From Candidatus Limadaptatus stercoripullorum (GTDB taxonomy: Bacteria > Bacillota > Clostridia > Christensenellales > CAG-917), in assembly GCA_018713795.1 (NCBI GenBank), contig DVOE01000057.1, positions 1 to 40,534 on the forward strand: DNA of 40,534 bases, written 5' to 3'. This document shows positions 32,661 to 40,534 of this stretch, one piece after another (position 1 is the stretch's first letter; every line of letters starts with the position of its first letter). A model generated the notes under the pieces. That model saw only the letters and a program-made list of their open reading frames with translations. It had not been told where the DNA came from and searched no databases. The position numbers and the translations under genes were made by a program.

Positions 32661-33161
32661 ATGCATATGACAAAGGAAACGGGGACGGAGGACGATCTCG
32701 TCGCTTCGCGCGCAGGGGCGCCGGGCGGCGACGCGTATGTTCGCACCTTCGGCGCATTCTGCCTCTTCGTGAACGGCGAAGAGGTGAAGTTCCGGCTCAG
32801 GAAGTGCAAGGAGTTCCTTGCGTATCTCGTGGACAAGAGGGGAGCGGTCGTGCCCATGTCCGAGATGATCGCCGCGCTCTGGCCGGGTCATCCCGAGGAC
32901 AAGGCGAAACTGCTTTACAGGAACGCCAAATGCCGCCTGTGTATGCTGCTTCGCGGGCTGGGGCTGAACGACGCCCTCATCCTCGGATATGCGCGCGCAA
33001 GCCTGGATCCGGCGGCGCTCGCCTGCGACATGTGGGACTATCTCGACGACGAGACGGACAGTAGCTACGCCGGGGAGTACATGACGGACTACGCCTGGCC
33101 GGCGGCGACGAGGTCCCGCCTCGACATAGTCGCTCTGCGCCGCGGCTTTGCCGTGAATTGA
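32661..33161 (+). CDS. SARP/winged-helix transcriptional regulator lacking a receiver domain
   Basis: RTFGAFCLFVNGEEVKFRLRKCKEFLAYLVDKRGAVVPMSEMIAALWPG...GEYMTDYAWPAATRSRL matches the output half of Clostridial SARP-type response regulators. Confidence 0.72.
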   Translation: MHMTKETGTEDDLVASRAGAPGGDAYVRTFGAFCLFVNGEEVKFRLRKCKEFLAYLVDKRGAVVPMSEMIAALWPGHPEDKAKLLYRNAKCRLCMLLRGLGLNDALILGYARASLDPAALACDMWDYLDDETDSSYAGEYMTDYAWPAATRSRLDIVALRRGFAVN

Positions 33162-33173
33162 CTCGGCTAAAAA

Positions 33174-33205
33174 GAAAAAAGCGCCCCCGAGAGGGCGCTT
33201 TTGCT
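33174..33205. terminator. Bidirectional terminator between convergent genes
   Basis: aaaaaaGCGCCC-ccgaga-GGGCGCttttgcttttt. Confidence 0.85.
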
Positions 33206-33212
33206 TTTTGTC

Positions 33213-34859
33213 TTACTTTTTCTTCTTTCTGACCGTGGCGGCGCGTCTCACGATACGCCCCGCGCCCTCCGCGCTCTCCGCGGGATCCGCCTTGACGACT
33301 TCCTTGGTGCACATGTCCGCCATCTCGTCGCAGAACGAGGTGATGAACGCCTCGCTCGCGTTGCGCTTGGCGAGCATGCTGAACGACATGTTCTCGGCGT
33401 GCGGGACGATCATGGTGAACTCTTTGGTGAACGCGTCGGTGTCCAGCCCCTCGAACCCGGTCTCGAGCACGGTGGCGTACCTGTTTTCGGGGGTGAGGGT
33501 CTGGGTGATGAGCGTGAAGCGGTCGAAGTCCTTGACCTTGGTGCCCGAGAGCACGATGGCGCGCAGGGCGAGGACATCGTAGCCGTAGTGGTCGAGGGAA
33601 GGGGTCTCCCTGAGCAGATCGGCGCGCACCTGCTGCCACTTGGAGATCTTGTGCGACTCGGCGAGCAGCCATCTGATGACATTGCCGGGCAGGTTGCGCA
33701 GGTTGTTGAACATATACCAGAACGGACCTATCGGGAAGGTGCTGTCCTCGAGGGACTTGTAGATTATGTTCAGCTTGTACGCGGCGTCGGGGTAGACCTT
33801 GACGGACACCTTGAACCCGCTGTGGTCGTCGTTTTCCTTGACGATCGCGATGGTCTTGCTCTTGTACTTGAACACCCAATTGAGAGTGCCGCGCCGCTTG
33901 ATGCAATGCACGCCGTCCAACCCGAAGAGGTAGTCGATGACTTCCTGCATGGACAGGGTCTTCTCCTTGTGCGGATTGAGGATGAGGTTCTCGAACTCGG
34001 CGTTGCCGACCATGTTCATCTTGATGACATCCATGTCCGAGGCGCCGTATTCCTCGAGCTCGGGCACCGCTTCGGTGTACTTCTTGACCACCGTGTACAC
34101 CTCGCCCTCGTGCAGCCTGACCGAACCGTAGTAGTTGGTGTTGCCGGAGCCGGGCAGGATATTTTCGTCGCGGTCGAGGGGCTGGATGTTGTCGTCGGTG
34201 GAGATATACTTCATGATGAGCGAAGCGTTGTCCGCCGAGTAGGCGACGGGCAGGGGAGCCGCGCTCTCGCCCGTCTCGTCCTTCTTCTCGAACTTCTTGG
34301 CGCCGCGAGGGGAGACCAGGAAGTAGACGAGAGCTGCGAGCACGCTCAGCACCACGAACACCACCGAAAGTATGATCATGAGCGCGGGATCGCCTATGAC
34401 CGCGAGCACGAACGCGTTGGTCTCTTCGCCCTCGTAGACGCCGAGCACGCTGCCCGCGACGGAGTAGTCGTCCTCAAAATGCACGCCGCCGAGCTCCTCG
34501 ATGTTCGAGACCACGCGCAGCGTAACGCGGGGTTTGCCGTCGTCGCCGGTGAAGACGAAGCCGACGGTGTCGCCCTCGCCGAAGCTGTCGGTGACGCGTA
34601 TGCGCGCTCCGTTTTCGAGCAGGTGACCGTTCGCGTCCGAGAGGGGGACGGTGAGGGTGTCGCCCGCGCCGTAGAAACCGCCGTTCGCCGCCGCATTCGC
34701 GGTGAAGTAGACGATGACGATGCTCGTGGCGAACGCCAGCGCGGTCAGCACAATGAGGAAAACGCGCACGACGCGCGCGATCGCGGGATCGCGCAGTCCC
34801 AGCGCTATCTCGAATTTCTTGGATTCTTTTTTGCCGTTTTTGCTGTTTTTGTCTCCCAT
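33213..34859 (-). CDS. Hypothetical 548-aa membrane protein; S26B signal-peptidase-like N-terminal region lacking the expected catalytic residues
   Basis: Two TM segments flanking GDTLTVPL...EGDTVGFVFTGDDGKPRVTLRVV, then a large hydrophilic C-terminal domain and a Lys-rich end. Confidence 0.55.
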   Translation of the reverse strand: MGDKNSKNGKKESKKFEIALGLRDPAIARVVRVFLIVLTALAFATSIVIVYFTANAAANGGFYGAGDTLTVPLSDANGHLLENGARIRVTDSFGEGDTVGFVFTGDDGKPRVTLRVVSNIEELGGVHFEDDYSVAGSVLGVYEGEETNAFVLAVIGDPALMIILSVVFVVLSVLAALVYFLVSPRGAKKFEKKDETGESAAPLPVAYSADNASLIMKYISTDDNIQPLDRDENILPGSGNTNYYGSVRLHEGEVYTVVKKYTEAVPELEEYGASDMDVIKMNMVGNAEFENLILNPHKEKTLSMQEVIDYLFGLDGVHCIKRRGTLNWVFKYKSKTIAIVKENDDHSGFKVSVKVYPDAAYKLNIIYKSLEDSTFPIGPFWYMFNNLRNLPGNVIRWLLAESHKISKWQQVRADLLRETPSLDHYGYDVLALRAIVLSGTKVKDFDRFTLITQTLTPENRYATVLETGFEGLDTDAFTKEFTMIVPHAENMSFSMLAKRNASEAFITSFCDEMADMCTKEVVKADPAESAEGAGRIVRRAATVRKKKK

Positions 34860-34895: not shown

Positions 34896-34924
34896 ACTTT
34901 AATGTATCGGCGGCGTTTTGTCAA
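34896..34924 (-). promoter_or_regulatory. Promoter for the 548-aa membrane protein
   Basis: Minus strand TTGACA-17 nt-TAAAGT. Confidence 0.6.
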
Positions 34925-35046: not shown

Positions 35047-35075
35047 TTGCCAAACCGGGAGCGCGGTGGTACAAT
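35047..35075 (+). promoter_or_regulatory. Promoter for the pilus-type cluster
   Basis: TTGCCA-17 nt-TACAAT. Confidence 0.65.
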
Positions 35076-35151: not shown

Positions 35152-36354
35152 TTGCAGAAATACAGTTACCGTGCGTACGACTCCGCAGGCAAGGCGGTGA
35201 AGGGAACTCTCGTCGCTCAGGACGAGAAGAATTTCCGCGACCTCTTGCACGAGCAGGGGATGCGCTTGTACGAGTACCGTCTCGTCAACCAGGCGAAGAA
35301 GGTCGCGAACAAGCCTCTCAAGGTCGGCGAACTCATCGCGTTCAGCCGTCAGCTCTCTTCCATGCTCTCTTCGGGTCTTGATCTCAGCCTCAGTCTCAAG
35401 ATGCTCTACGAGCGCACCGAAAAGAACAAGAAGCACCTGAAGCAAGTCGAGGCGCAGCTTTACGAGGAGATTCAGAAGGGCGAGTCGCTGGCGTCCGCCA
35501 TGTACAATCTGGACAACACTTTCCCCGCTCTTTACATCAGCATGGTCAAGTCGGGCGAGCTCAACGGCAAGATCGACGAGTCTCTCGTCACGCTCTCCGA
35601 CTACTTTGAAAAGGAACACAAGCAGCGCAACCAGATAAAGAGCGCCATGAGCTATCCCATCATCCTGCTCGTGATATGCGCGCTTGTTGTGGTGCTGATG
35701 TCCGTGGTCGTGCTGCCGAGGATGGCGGCGATGATCCCCGAGGGACAGCCGCTCCCCGTGCCAACGCAGATACTGCTCGGACTCAAAGATTTCGTGGTCG
35801 AACAATGGTTCGTGGTGCTGATCGTGATATTCGCGCTCGTGGTGTGCGTCCCGATAATCAAGCGCATCCCCGCGGTGAGTATGCTGACCGGCAAGCTCGC
35901 GACAAAACTCCCCGTGATAGGCAAGCTCCGCAAGATGCTTTATACGGCGACTTTTGCGCGGTCGCTGTCCACGCTGTACGCGACGGGCATACCTCTTCTC
36001 GACGCGATATCCATGGGCGGGGAGATCCTCGGCAACAAGTTCATCGAGACGCAGGTGAGAGAGGCGGTCATCGCCATCCGCAAGGGCAGTTCGATCGCGG
36101 AAGCGTTCTCCATCGTCACATCGTTCGATCCCATGCTCATGACGATGATATTCGTCGGCGAGCAGTCGGGGACTCTTGACGACATCCTCATACAGACGGC
36201 GGGTTATTTCGAAGAGGAAGCGCAGGGCGCGCTGAAGAGGCTCATCGGGATGATCTCGCCCATCATGCTCATGATCATGGCGGTGGTCATAGGTTTCGTG
36301 CTCATCGCGGTCATGATGCCGATGATGACGCTCTACCAGTCCATCGGCGTTTAA
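35152..36354 (+). CDS. Type II secretion/type IV pilus inner-membrane platform protein (GspF/PilC family)
   Basis: YSYRAYDSAGKAVKGTLVAQDEKNFRDLL, FSRQLSSMLSSGLDLSLSLKML, FPALYISMVKSGELNGKIDESL, TFARSLSTLYATGIPLLDAI; TTG start with strong SD taaggaggg. Confidence 0.92.
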   Translation: MQKYSYRAYDSAGKAVKGTLVAQDEKNFRDLLHEQGMRLYEYRLVNQAKKVANKPLKVGELIAFSRQLSSMLSSGLDLSLSLKMLYERTEKNKKHLKQVEAQLYEEIQKGESLASAMYNLDNTFPALYISMVKSGELNGKIDESLVTLSDYFEKEHKQRNQIKSAMSYPIILLVICALVVVLMSVVVLPRMAAMIPEGQPLPVPTQILLGLKDFVVEQWFVVLIVIFALVVCVPIIKRIPAVSMLTGKLATKLPVIGKLRKMLYTATFARSLSTLYATGIPLLDAISMGGEILGNKFIETQVREAVIAIRKGSSIAEAFSIVTSFDPMLMTMIFVGEQSGTLDDILIQTAGYFEEEAQGALKRLIGMISPIMLMIMAVVIGFVLIAVMMPMMTLYQSIGV

Positions 36355-36376: not shown

Positions 36377-37291
36377 ATGTACATCCTGCATCTCAGCGGA
36401 GACACGGTGAAGATACTCGAAGGCGCGTTCACGCGGCGGAAGCTGGTCATAAACAGCCTCTATTCCGTCGCCATGCCCAGCGACTATCTCGACGCACCCG
36501 ACGAAAAGGGCTACGAGAAGCTCGAAGCCGTCGTCACCAACGGGCTTCGCGATCTCGGCGAGGAATTCAAGAACAAGAAGATCCGCATCGTCCTCGACAA
36601 CATCAACATCCCCTTCAGGGAGATGCTGGTGCCCGCGCTCCCGCGCAAACGCACCGTCGCGCTCATAAAGAACGAGATATTCAGCGACGAGAAGCTCGCG
36701 GACGGCAACACCGTGGATTATATCGAGATAGAGCGCAAGGTCGACGAGCACAAGCAGACGCGCATCATGGTCACCTATGTCGACAACATCATCCTCGCGG
36801 ACATGCAGAAACTTTGCAAGAACCTCATGTTCAAGCTGCTTTCGGTGGATGTGGGGCAGAACTGCACGGCGAAACTTCTGCGTTACACGGCGGCGGCTCT
36901 TCCCGCGAGTTATGTGTTCGCCGAGCTGCGCGAGAGCGTGGTCATGATAAGTCTGGTCATAGACGGCGCGTTCAAGTACTCCATGTCAAAGAGCATCGTC
37001 TCCCTGGAATCCATGCGGTTCAAGAGCGAGCGGACATATTTCGTCAACGACATAACCAACACCCTCCGCGGCGCGGTGGAGGTGTTCAGGAAACAGTACC
37101 CCGACTTCGTGTGCACGGATGTCGTGGTGGCTGCCTCGCCCGAGAAATACGAGCTCATGCGCAAGCCCGTCGCCGAAAAACTCGGCGTCAATGTCAGGCA
37201 GGTCACCGTGCCCGCCAATGTGGACAGCATCTCGGACGAGGATTACAACGAGTTCTTCTGCACCATCGGCGGGCTCATAAGGGAGGGATGA
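36377..37291 (+). CDS. PilM-like actin-fold pilus assembly protein
   Basis: Position between PilC and PilN-like genes; RIVLDNINIPFREMLVPALPRKRTVALIKNEI... SVDVGQNCTAKLLRY. Confidence 0.72.
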   Translation: MYILHLSGDTVKILEGAFTRRKLVINSLYSVAMPSDYLDAPDEKGYEKLEAVVTNGLRDLGEEFKNKKIRIVLDNINIPFREMLVPALPRKRTVALIKNEIFSDEKLADGNTVDYIEIERKVDEHKQTRIMVTYVDNIILADMQKLCKNLMFKLLSVDVGQNCTAKLLRYTAAALPASYVFAELRESVVMISLVIDGAFKYSMSKSIVSLESMRFKSERTYFVNDITNTLRGAVEVFRKQYPDFVCTDVVVAASPEKYELMRKPVAEKLGVNVRQVTVPANVDSISDEDYNEFFCTIGGLIREG

Positions 37292-37978
37292 ATGAGACGC
37301 AAGGATATCAACCTGCTTTACAGCCTCACGCAGGCGACCAAGAAAAAGAGTTCCTCCAACATCATGGTGGTGCTCGGTGTGTTGGTGCTTGCGGTGATAG
37401 GCGTCATGGTCTTCTTGTTCGTGGACGCGAAAGGGGAGGTCAGCGATAACGAGGCGCTGATCAAGGATCTGGACTCCAAACTGTCGGGTTCGCTGCTCCT
37501 TGGCAATCTCCAGCGCAAGTACGACGCCATGAAGGCGGCATACGAGAGCGATATCGCGGATGTCATCGCCGAGATCGCTCCCTCCGAGTACGCGGGGCAG
37601 TCGGGCAAGATGAGCGCAGCGCTGCTCGACATTCTCATGCTCACCGACGAGGAGAACGCGGAGGACTCCGGCTACGACGCCGACGGCGAGGCGGACAATG
37701 TGTTCGATGTCGACATAAAGAGCATTGCCATCTCCGGCACTTCGGTCAACATCACCTGCGCGGTCGTCGACTATCTCGCCGCATGGGATTTCACCGACTA
37801 TCTCGCGGGGATCGCGACCGACCTTCCCGAGGCGCTCGGCGAGCTCGTCGAGCGCAACGCCCGCCTGTTCGCGGGAGTGCAGGACAACTACTCGGGTCTG
37901 CCGCAGCTGCCGGGGAACGGTGAACCCATCGAGTTCACGCTGCGGTTCGTCGTTGCCGATTGGGGGGCGCTGGTATGA
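37292..37978 (+). CDS. PilN-like membrane protein
   Basis: Short cytoplasmic RRKDINLL motif, a single TM, then a periplasmic-type domain; between PilM- and PilO-like genes. Confidence 0.68.
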   Translation: MRRKDINLLYSLTQATKKKSSSNIMVVLGVLVLAVIGVMVFLFVDAKGEVSDNEALIKDLDSKLSGSLLLGNLQRKYDAMKAAYESDIADVIAEIAPSEYAGQSGKMSAALLDILMLTDEENAEDSGYDADGEADNVFDVDIKSIAISGTSVNITCAVVDYLAAWDFTDYLAGIATDLPEALGELVERNARLFAGVQDNYSGLPQLPGNGEPIEFTLRFVVADWGALV

Positions 37979-38970
37979 ATCTGAGCCTTAACTTCACGAT
38001 GAGAGACAAGATACTGCTCGCCGTGCTCGCGGTCGTTCTGTTCGTGGGCATGATGTACCTCTACGGCGTCATGCCGGCAAACGAGGAGGCGGAGCAGCTG
38101 GCGAAGCAGGCTGCCGAGAAACAGCAGCAGCTCAACGCCCTGAACGCGCAGATCGCGGGCATAAACATCGACGCGCTGGAAGAGGAGTACGACATCCTCC
38201 TCGACTACTACTACGACGCCAAGGCGGAGATAGAGGCGGCGGGCGCCGCGACGCTCCCGGACAGAGTGCAGATCGTCGCCATAGAAAGGCGGGTGATCGG
38301 TATGCTCGACGAAGCGGGGATAGAGGGCTACAGCACCCAGGGCTGGGCGATAGCGGAGGAGACCTTCGTCAGGGAATATAACGGCTACGAGGCGAATTAC
38401 AGCATCGCCCGCGCCGTGTGCCCCACGCCCTTCAGGTGCGATCCCGACAAGGTGGGAGCCTTCATCGACCGCGTGGCGGAAGAGGAGTTCTTCACGCTCA
38501 CCGACATCAGCATAAGCTACACGACGGAGAATGTGACCGTGGAGGACGGCACCGCGGGAGAGGACGGGCAGGAGCCCGTTACCGAGACCCGTGAGATAGC
38601 CGAAGGCTCGCTCACTCTCGAGTACTATATGATCGCGCGCGATGTGACGGCAGCCGTGCCCGCGCTGCTCCCCGAAGTCACGGGGCTGGAAGCGGACGGC
38701 GCGACGATCTCCTTCGACTCGGTGGAGAACGCCGAGGGGTACGAGTTCTACACCCGCGGCGCGGACGGCACTTTCACCCTCGTCCCGTCCCTCGCGGTGA
38801 GCGCGACAGCGGACGGAAGAGTGACGGTCAAACTGTCGGACGCCTACCTCACGCCCGGCACCCACGAGATAGCCGTGCGCGCGGTGGGCGACAAGATGGC
38901 GGCGGGAGGCGGCTGGTTCAAGTCGCCTAAGCCCGGAGCGGATACCGCCGTCGTTACGGTGACGATCTGA
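37975..38970 (+). CDS. PilO-like protein with C-terminal FN3-like domain
   Basis: N-terminal MNLSLNFTMRDKILLAVLAVVLFVGMMYLYGVMPANEEAEQLAKQAAEKQQQLNALNAQI (TM plus coiled coil); C-terminal FN3-like sheet VTGLEADGATISFDSVENAEGYEFYTR...GTHEIAVRAVGD. ATGA overlap with PilN. Confidence 0.68.
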   Translation: MNLSLNFTMRDKILLAVLAVVLFVGMMYLYGVMPANEEAEQLAKQAAEKQQQLNALNAQIAGINIDALEEEYDILLDYYYDAKAEIEAAGAATLPDRVQIVAIERRVIGMLDEAGIEGYSTQGWAIAEETFVREYNGYEANYSIARAVCPTPFRCDPDKVGAFIDRVAEEEFFTLTDISISYTTENVTVEDGTAGEDGQEPVTETREIAEGSLTLEYYMIARDVTAAVPALLPEVTGLEADGATISFDSVENAEGYEFYTRGADGTFTLVPSLAVSATADGRVTVKLSDAYLTPGTHEIAVRAVGDKMAAGGGWFKSPKPGADTAVVTVTI

Positions 38971-39054
38971 CAAAAAAGCGGGTTTACCGAGCAATAAACG
39001 CGGTATAAAACCTGTGTATGACAAATTAAGGCGTTAAGGGCGCCGAGAGGGAAG

Positions 39055-40534
39055 ATGAGAGGCAGCAGGATAAGGCGGATGTTCGGCAGGAAGTCGAAGA
39101 GGGGAGCGTCGCTCGCGACGGTCCTCGTGTCCATGGCTATCCTCGCCATAGTCGCCACCATGTTCACCGCCATCGCCATGCGCTCTTATCAGTACTCCTA
39201 CGCCAAGCTCTGCAAGCAGCAGGCGTATTACACGGCGACCTCCACTATCGAGAGCTACTATCAGACCATACGGCAGTCTTCCGAACACCTCTCGAGCATG
39301 ATCAACGCGCTCGAGGCCGCGTATCAAGACGCGGTCGAAGAGGAGAACGGACTGCATGTCGATCCCACCCGGGTGAGCGTCAAAGTGGGCTCGTCGGGCG
39401 GGGCGGACTCCTCGGGAATGCTGGTGGACGGCGGCTTTTTCGACACCTATCTCGGGGAGTGCGAACTCTATGTGCGCTACGCCAACAGCGACCGCTCGGA
39501 GATCAGCATAGAGGCGCACGCGACCTACAACGGCTACACCGAGACCGCGCGCGCAAAGGTGGCGCGCACCAATCTCGCCGCTTCCGAACTCAAAAAGATA
39601 TTCGACAATGTCTTTTGCCTGCAATCTCCCATAACCACCATCGTCGCGGACGCGGCTTACGGGGATGTCTATGTCTCCCAGCCCATGGTGTCCTACTTCC
39701 TGGATGAGAGCGGTAACAAAGTGACCGCCGGCAACGAAGGAGCATACAACACGGTCCTTGCCTCGCTGGAAAAGGATGGGAGCTTCGGCGGCTACTCGGC
39801 GCAGCCGGGGCAGTATCTCAGGGACGGGGGCGGCACCATACTCACGGGCGACAGCATCGCGGGGAAGTACAACGCGGTGCTCCGCGACTATGTCTACGCC
39901 AATGTGCAGGCGAGCACGGAGGAGGGCGGTCTCACCGGTCACACCAAGCCGCTCGACATGGACAACACCCCGCTTTACAGATCAAGCGCGCTCGAAGATA
40001 AAGACCGCTGGTACAACGACTGGGTGGAACTGTACATGTTCTCCGCCTCGACGGGCGGCACGACGCTCGACGGCAATCTTTACGCCGACTCCCGTGTGCT
40101 CGTGGGGCTGCTCGACAGAAACGAAGCCATGCGCGAATATGTCCGCTACTGGGACGACACCGTCAAGCGCTCCGTCTACTCCAAGGACAACGATTCGGAC
40201 ACGCTGACCAACTACTTGCAGGACAACACCTTCGTTGAGCTGTCGCTGGAGGCGGGATTCGAGCACGGGTTTGGGAAGGATGTCTTCTTCGATCACGAGA
40301 GTACGACGCTGGACAGAGCGCTTTCCAAGTTCCGCATCAACGGCAACTGTTACTTCTGGGAAGACGCGCGCATCGAGAACTTCGACAGCACTCAGACCGA
40401 GAACGCCCTCAGCGGCATAAAGAACAACATCTACGCCCACAAAGATCTCTACATAGACGGGCTGTACATTTACGAGTGGATCACCGCCACTCCCGAGACC
40501 TCTTCCGAGGTCAGCATTTACGGCGATGTGGTGG
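39055..40534 (+). CDS. Large pilin-like (PilX-like N-terminus) protein, 3' end beyond window
   Basis: ATG at 39055 after gagaggga; frame open to the window end (493+ codons). N-terminus RKSKRG|ASLATVLVSMAILAIVATMFTAIAMRSYQYSYAKLCKQQAYYTATSTIE. Absent from the ORF track because no stop lies in the window. Confidence 0.75.
   Translation, partial: MRGSRIRRMFGRKSKRGASLATVLVSMAILAIVATMFTAIAMRSYQYSYAKLCKQQAYYTATSTIESYYQTIRQSSEHLSSMINALEAAYQDAVEEENGLHVDPTRVSVKVGSSGGADSSGMLVDGGFFDTYLGECELYVRYANSDRSEISIEAHATYNGYTETARAKVARTNLAASELKKIFDNVFCLQSPITTIVADAAYGDVYVSQPMVSYFLDESGNKVTAGNEGAYNTVLASLEKDGSFGGYSAQPGQYLRDGGGTILTGDSIAGKYNAVLRDYVYANVQASTEEGGLTGHTKPLDMDNTPLYRSSALEDKDRWYNDWVELYMFSASTGGTTLDGNLYADSRVLVGLLDRNEAMREYVRYWDDTVKRSVYSKDNDSDTLTNYLQDNTFVELSLEAGFEHGFGKDVFFDHESTTLDRALSKFRINGNCYFWEDARIENFDSTQTENALSGIKNNIYAHKDLYIDGLYIYEWITATPETSSEVSIYGDVV

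Follow-up and report, generated by a model that had tools for sequence, protein, structure and literature searches.

The divergent gene pair near one end of contig DVOE01000057.1 of Candidatus Limadaptatus stercoripullorum raises the question of what a 548-residue protein, for which Pfam and NCBIfam HMM searches and PDB sequence searches identified no credible family, does next to a pilus-type operon. In the window (the whole 40,534-nucleotide stretch of DNA that was analysed) its ORF lies exactly where the original prediction had placed it, on the minus strand, which that prediction had not given. The motifs reported for it are also at the places noted, i.e., GDTLTV at residues 66–71, GDTVGFVF at 96–103, VTLRVV at 112–117 and SPRG at 183–186. 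The gene and its parts are as follows:

33213..34859, minus: whole gene, 548 residues; putative pseudo-S26B ectodomain between two transmembrane (TM) helices, then a predicted cytoplasmic, YjbR-like region
34686..34787, minus: TM helix 1, residues 25–58 (AlphaFold helix, hydrophobic, preceded by a K-rich N-terminus)
34416..34685, minus: S26B/LexA-fold ectodomain, residues 59–148, without catalytic Ser/His (hhalign, Foldseek)
34311..34391, minus: TM helix 2, about residues 157–183, then SPRGAKKFEKK (AlphaFold and sequence)
33981..34247, minus: conserved segment, residues 205–293, poorly modelled
33642..33980, minus: MmcQ/YjbR-like domain, residues 294–406 (Foldseek match to 2fki; hhalign against PF04237 members)
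33306..33629, minus: C-terminal alpha/beta segment, residues 411–518

The AlphaFold model was built with 13 sequences (all homologue alignments were shallow, at 11–13 sequences) and placed TM helices at residues ~25–58 and 158–182 on either side of an all-beta domain (residues 63–146) with a pLDDT of about 76–88; residues 186–285 fell below a pLDDT of 50. As positively charged residues follow the second TM helix, the positive-inside rule would put the half of the protein after it in the cytoplasm.

A signal-peptidase-like ectodomain

The N-terminus had been likened to the S26B (SipW/archaeal-type) layout, and both profile and structure comparisons bore this out. In hhalign the N-domain (residues 20–192) matched a set of 23 S26B proteins, picked out within the order by TIGR02228, at a probability of 94.4% and a score of 54.5 over 134 columns; the hhalign controls were 60 column shuffles, kept within the TM and ectodomain blocks, and the shuffled N-domain profiles scored 15.7 on average (sd 2.7) with a maximum of 25.5. 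The ectodomain by itself scored 29.3 (shuffle maximum 23.5), so the case for S26B ancestry depends on the complete TM-beta-TM unit. A Foldseek search with the whole model identified the LexA C-domains 6a2q, 6a2s and 6a2t (probability 0.96–1.00, E-values of 0.02–0.1) and also the lambda repressor C-domain. LexA and lambda repressor C-domains form the sister branch of the LexA/signal-peptidase fold, the superfamily of which is treated in PMC12984324. The S26-like fold, whose absence had been named beforehand as a finding that would count against the prediction, was in this way recovered by LexA-type structural matches as well as by profile. Like the SipW/archaeal S26B proteins (TIGR02228), the protein has a TM-beta-TM order, a GD strand, an xTxRVV strand and a (V/I)LG strand before the second TM helix, but it lacks the SGSMEP Ser and the THRVV His and carries a long cytoplasmic extension. 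A TIGR02228/NCBIfam search with the protein itself gave no match at E ≤ 1.

How the catalytic residues were lost differs in part from the original prediction. Its reading of the catalytic Ser-Met as Gly-Phe was wrong: in the profile alignment the SGSMEP box aligns to ~L73-S-D-gap-A-N-G78, and the catalytic Ser of S26B falls opposite the gap between D75 and A76. The His of THRVV is indeed Leu (L114); in homologues this site is L, E, S or V, and never His. Neither catalytic residue was found in any of the 11 full-length homologues, and no homologue has an S-M. Because the Ser position is gapped and the His replaced, the ectodomain is, as judged from sequence, a degenerate S26B domain and a pseudo-enzyme, and the inactivity that had been predicted is upheld at that level for all homologues.

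A YjbR-like domain in the C-terminal half

The ~330 C-terminal residues had been described as without a recognised family, which held for residues 205–293 and 411–518, to which no family could be assigned, and did not hold for residues 294–406. The top Foldseek match was E. coli YjbR (2fki), both with the full model and with a separate model of residues 200–519 (E-values of 5.1e-4 and 1.4e-3 in the two models, probability 1.00), and DR2400/DUF419 ranked second in both runs. Run against 24 YjbR proteins from this order, hhalign gave probabilities of 71–81, with a top score of 44.9 where the shuffles reached 25 at most. The Pfam YjbR model (PF04237) was matched below threshold in two of 13 members, with a best E-value of 0.031. 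These models and profiles support a YjbR-like fold for residues 294–406. The protein and MmcQ/YjbR (DUF419, PF04237) thus share the fold (2fki, 2a1v) and the profile match; the protein differs in being membrane-tethered, in having conserved extra residues (about 90 before the core and 110 after it), and in that single sequences of its family stay below the Pfam threshold. The domain is basic (17 K/R versus 11 D/E). A passage of PMC7641849, citing Singarapu 2007, presents YjbR-type proteins as proposed DNA binders via a 'double wing', and there the DNA binding of YjbR is a prediction from structure only.

Two further assignments in this half were rejected. A second YjbR copy in residues 420–520 was tested by profile comparison and discarded. 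Residues 268–318 (window 33906–34058, minus) resemble helices II–IV of acyl carrier protein (EEYGASDMDVIKMNM vs DLGADSLDIVEMLM), with a sequence score well above shuffles and above those of 50 sequence windows from other proteins. The stretch has SDM where DSL is expected, so that the phosphopantetheine Ser is Asp, and the invariant G285 breaks the would-be helix II; acyl carrier protein was also absent among the Foldseek matches listed.

Linkage to the pilus operon

We identified homologues to the protein in seven further genomes from the genus (56–68% identity) and in four MAGs that carry the label Christensenellaceae and belong to another family (genus g78; 48–51% identity), and two distant same-family relatives (L029 and L030, of genera g2 and g9) share the C-terminal half only. 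Their spread through the genus and into a second family of the order, with the location unchanged each time, shows that the gene is not a chance ORF. The family is narrow, with four genera found: across 391 class-level and 399 phylum-level genomes the only matches were that of the window itself and a single weak, partial one, and viral contigs and plasmids yielded no homologue. Weak or chance matches (L031/L011, 27% identity over 139 residues; L012–L013; L045–L046) were not used. The ectodomain is the least conserved part, with 25–39% identity to the window protein within the genus and 20–22% in g78, and the YjbR-like domain the most conserved, with 79–85% and 74–76%, respectively. The g2 and g9 relatives have 43–54% identity in the YjbR part and occupy the same position beside pilC, with a different N-terminus that apparently has two TM helices and no beta domain. 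Based on this pattern we read the cytoplasmic part as probably carrying the conserved function and the ectodomain, variable or missing, as a likely variable input.

The divergent gap of roughly 290 bp facing the operon is confirmed, at 292 bp to pilC. The features of this region and its flanks are:

34896..34924, minus: promoter-like site of the target gene, TTGACA-17-TAAAGT, 36 bp upstream of the gene
35047..35075, plus: promoter-like site of the pilC operon, TTGCCA-17-TACAAT
35152..36354, plus: encodes a pilC/GspF-type platform protein and heads the pilus operon (T2SSF, E-value 2.8e-50)
36377..38970, plus: PilM-, PilN- and PilO-like genes (T2SSM match for the PilO-like; the PilM and PilN labels follow gene order and look, Pfam having given no match)
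33180..33199, no strand: hairpin between A/T runs, a likely terminator shared with the convergent gene at 32661–33161 (from sequence)

All 14 loci have the gene divergent from pilC, and no homologue was found apart from pilus genes, as the suggested link to the cluster had required. In the window and the 13 homologue loci pilM follows pilC; in the full-length group the series goes on with pilN, pilO and a large protein whose N-terminus is prepilin-like. The G003 cluster further on encodes N_methyl pilins, PilD (Peptidase_A24), PilB (T2SSE plus MshEN) and more pilins. The very large protein after pilO has a prepilin-like hydrophobic N-terminus (window 38973–40534; L061:3258-6701); it is 1147 residues long in G003, with a weak DUF7305 match, and the copy in the window is truncated where the contig ends.

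Within the family, a close pilC was found in exactly the ten genomes with the gene, and two genomes of the same genus (G002 and G004) have neither the gene nor the pilus operon. PilC is 69–71% identical to that of g78, from the other family, versus 47–49% to those of the same-family genera g2 and g9. Obg does not follow this pattern (59–61% to g78 versus 61–63% to g2/g9), which points to a joint transfer of gene and operon; the two were apparently gained, lost and transferred together, as far as sequence comparison can tell. On the other flank, no window gene has an orthologue beside the target in any homologue locus, whereas the pilC side is conserved in every one. The small protein at 32661–33161 (plus), convergent with the target, looks like a winged-helix regulator by eye; it has no Pfam match and no counterpart in the homologue loci. 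The association runs in one direction: related pilC-pilM-pilN-pilO clusters in family f16 (L141–L144) have no homologue, so the protein would not be needed for every pilus of such a type. In these four loci a co-oriented giant protein of about 2300–3200 residues as called, some of these lengths being cut by the locus edge, lies directly upstream of pilC.

TTGACA at 17-bp spacing also turned up in the remaining full-length homologue loci that were scanned. TTGC(C/A)A-17 bp-TRYAAT precedes pilC in most loci, the TTGC core being common to both genera; this pilC −35 is off-consensus yet conserved. Beyond the promoter-like sites, the intergenic alignment revealed by eye no conserved operator-like palindrome. 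Regulation is compatible with this pattern but not proven by it. The target-pilC gap of each of the four g78 loci (L018–L021) contains the identical 18-bp GTGCTCTAGCCCGCTAAT, within 700–1000 bp that otherwise diverge.

Candidate function and alternatives

As the gene is found only beside such pilus clusters, its product probably controls or helps build pili, here those of one type IV pilus lineage in Christensenellales-related Clostridia. We lean, tentatively, towards a membrane-tethered, non-enzymatic regulator dedicated to this one pilus lineage that would tune the divergent pilC operon. The SipW-type (S26B) ectodomain, its catalysis lost, would probably keep a binding role only, with a fast-evolving pilin or a PilX-like protein at the pilus base as a possible ligand. 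We infer that the YjbR-like 'double-wing' domain inside the cell is the output, with DNA as its target, such that the state of the pilus might be signalled inwards through the membrane to tune the pilC operon. This reading is favoured by the exclusive pairing of the gene with pilC, their shared absence and apparent co-transfer, the S26B ancestry without catalytic residues, the highly conserved, basic domain resembling the proposed DNA binders of the YjbR type, the conserved promoter-like sites in the gap and the SipA precedent described below. It weighs against a regulator that signals must cross the membrane via two TM helices only, and the step to DNA is weakened by the missing operator. The most far-reaching form of this proposal would be a new class of transmembrane pilus regulator, in which a dead signal peptidase serves as an extracytoplasmic sensor and acts through the membrane on a DNA-binding output of the YjbR type, which in turn controls the operon of a type IV pilus; we consider this rather unlikely to hold in full.

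An assembly or motor accessory, its cytoplasmic domain docked on PilB, PilC or PilM and its ectodomain holding or ordering pilins, is a serious possibility, if one we rank as less likely than a regulator. Strict co-inheritance with the operon and the lack of a conserved operator suit it, and the identity of the YjbR-like domain across genera resembles that of PilC or PilM (62%), as would fit a partner of the core machine. There is also a precedent in SipA of Streptococcus pyogenes, a dead signal peptidase essential for sortase pilus assembly in which the catalytic Ser and Lys are replaced by Asp and Gly (PMC4049620); by analogy, a role similar to that proposed for sortase pili may apply here. 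Both proteins have a signal-peptidase fold with lost catalytic residues, are extracytoplasmic and dedicated to a pilus cluster, and occur in Gram-positive-type bacteria. SipA is however a type I (E. coli-like) protein with an N-terminal TM and serves sortase-built pili, whereas the target is S26B-like with two TMs, belongs with a type IV pilus operon and adds the large cytoplasmic YjbR-like region; to our knowledge, no cytoplasmic domain is known in SipA. Against an accessory speak the position of the gene, which is never inside the pil operon and always diverges from it behind a promoter-like site of its own, the dispensability of the ectodomain in g2 and g9, and the nearest solved folds, YjbR/DUF419, which are those of proposed DNA binders.

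That the gene is a neighbour with no functional link to pili, placed there by chance or recent descent, is improbable: common descent within so narrow a family does explain part of the shared gene order, but an unlinked neighbour fits poorly with the one-sided retention of the pilC flank, the co-absence in G002 and G004 and the apparent joint transfer between families. Less probable still is a signal peptidase that remains active and uses a non-canonical catalytic site to process secreted pilus proteins, for despite the full S26B-like layout with two TMs, box-B Ser and box-D His are missing in every homologue with the His site varying freely, the ectodomain is the fastest-evolving part, and prepilins are processed by PilD, itself encoded in the G003 cluster.

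Our literature searches found nothing that joins YjbR, a transmembrane protein and pili, which at their partial coverage is weak evidence of novelty. The work names an unannotated type IV pilus accessory gene in uncultured Clostridia and joins two puzzles, the dead signal peptidases of pilus loci and the role of YjbR-like domains, in one testable system. If a sensor with a DNA output is the true reading, YjbR-like domains would gain a function, and SipA would be joined by another, independent case of a dead signal peptidase recruited to pilus biology. The theme would then have arisen twice, in sortase and type IV pili, from different branches of the signal peptidases.
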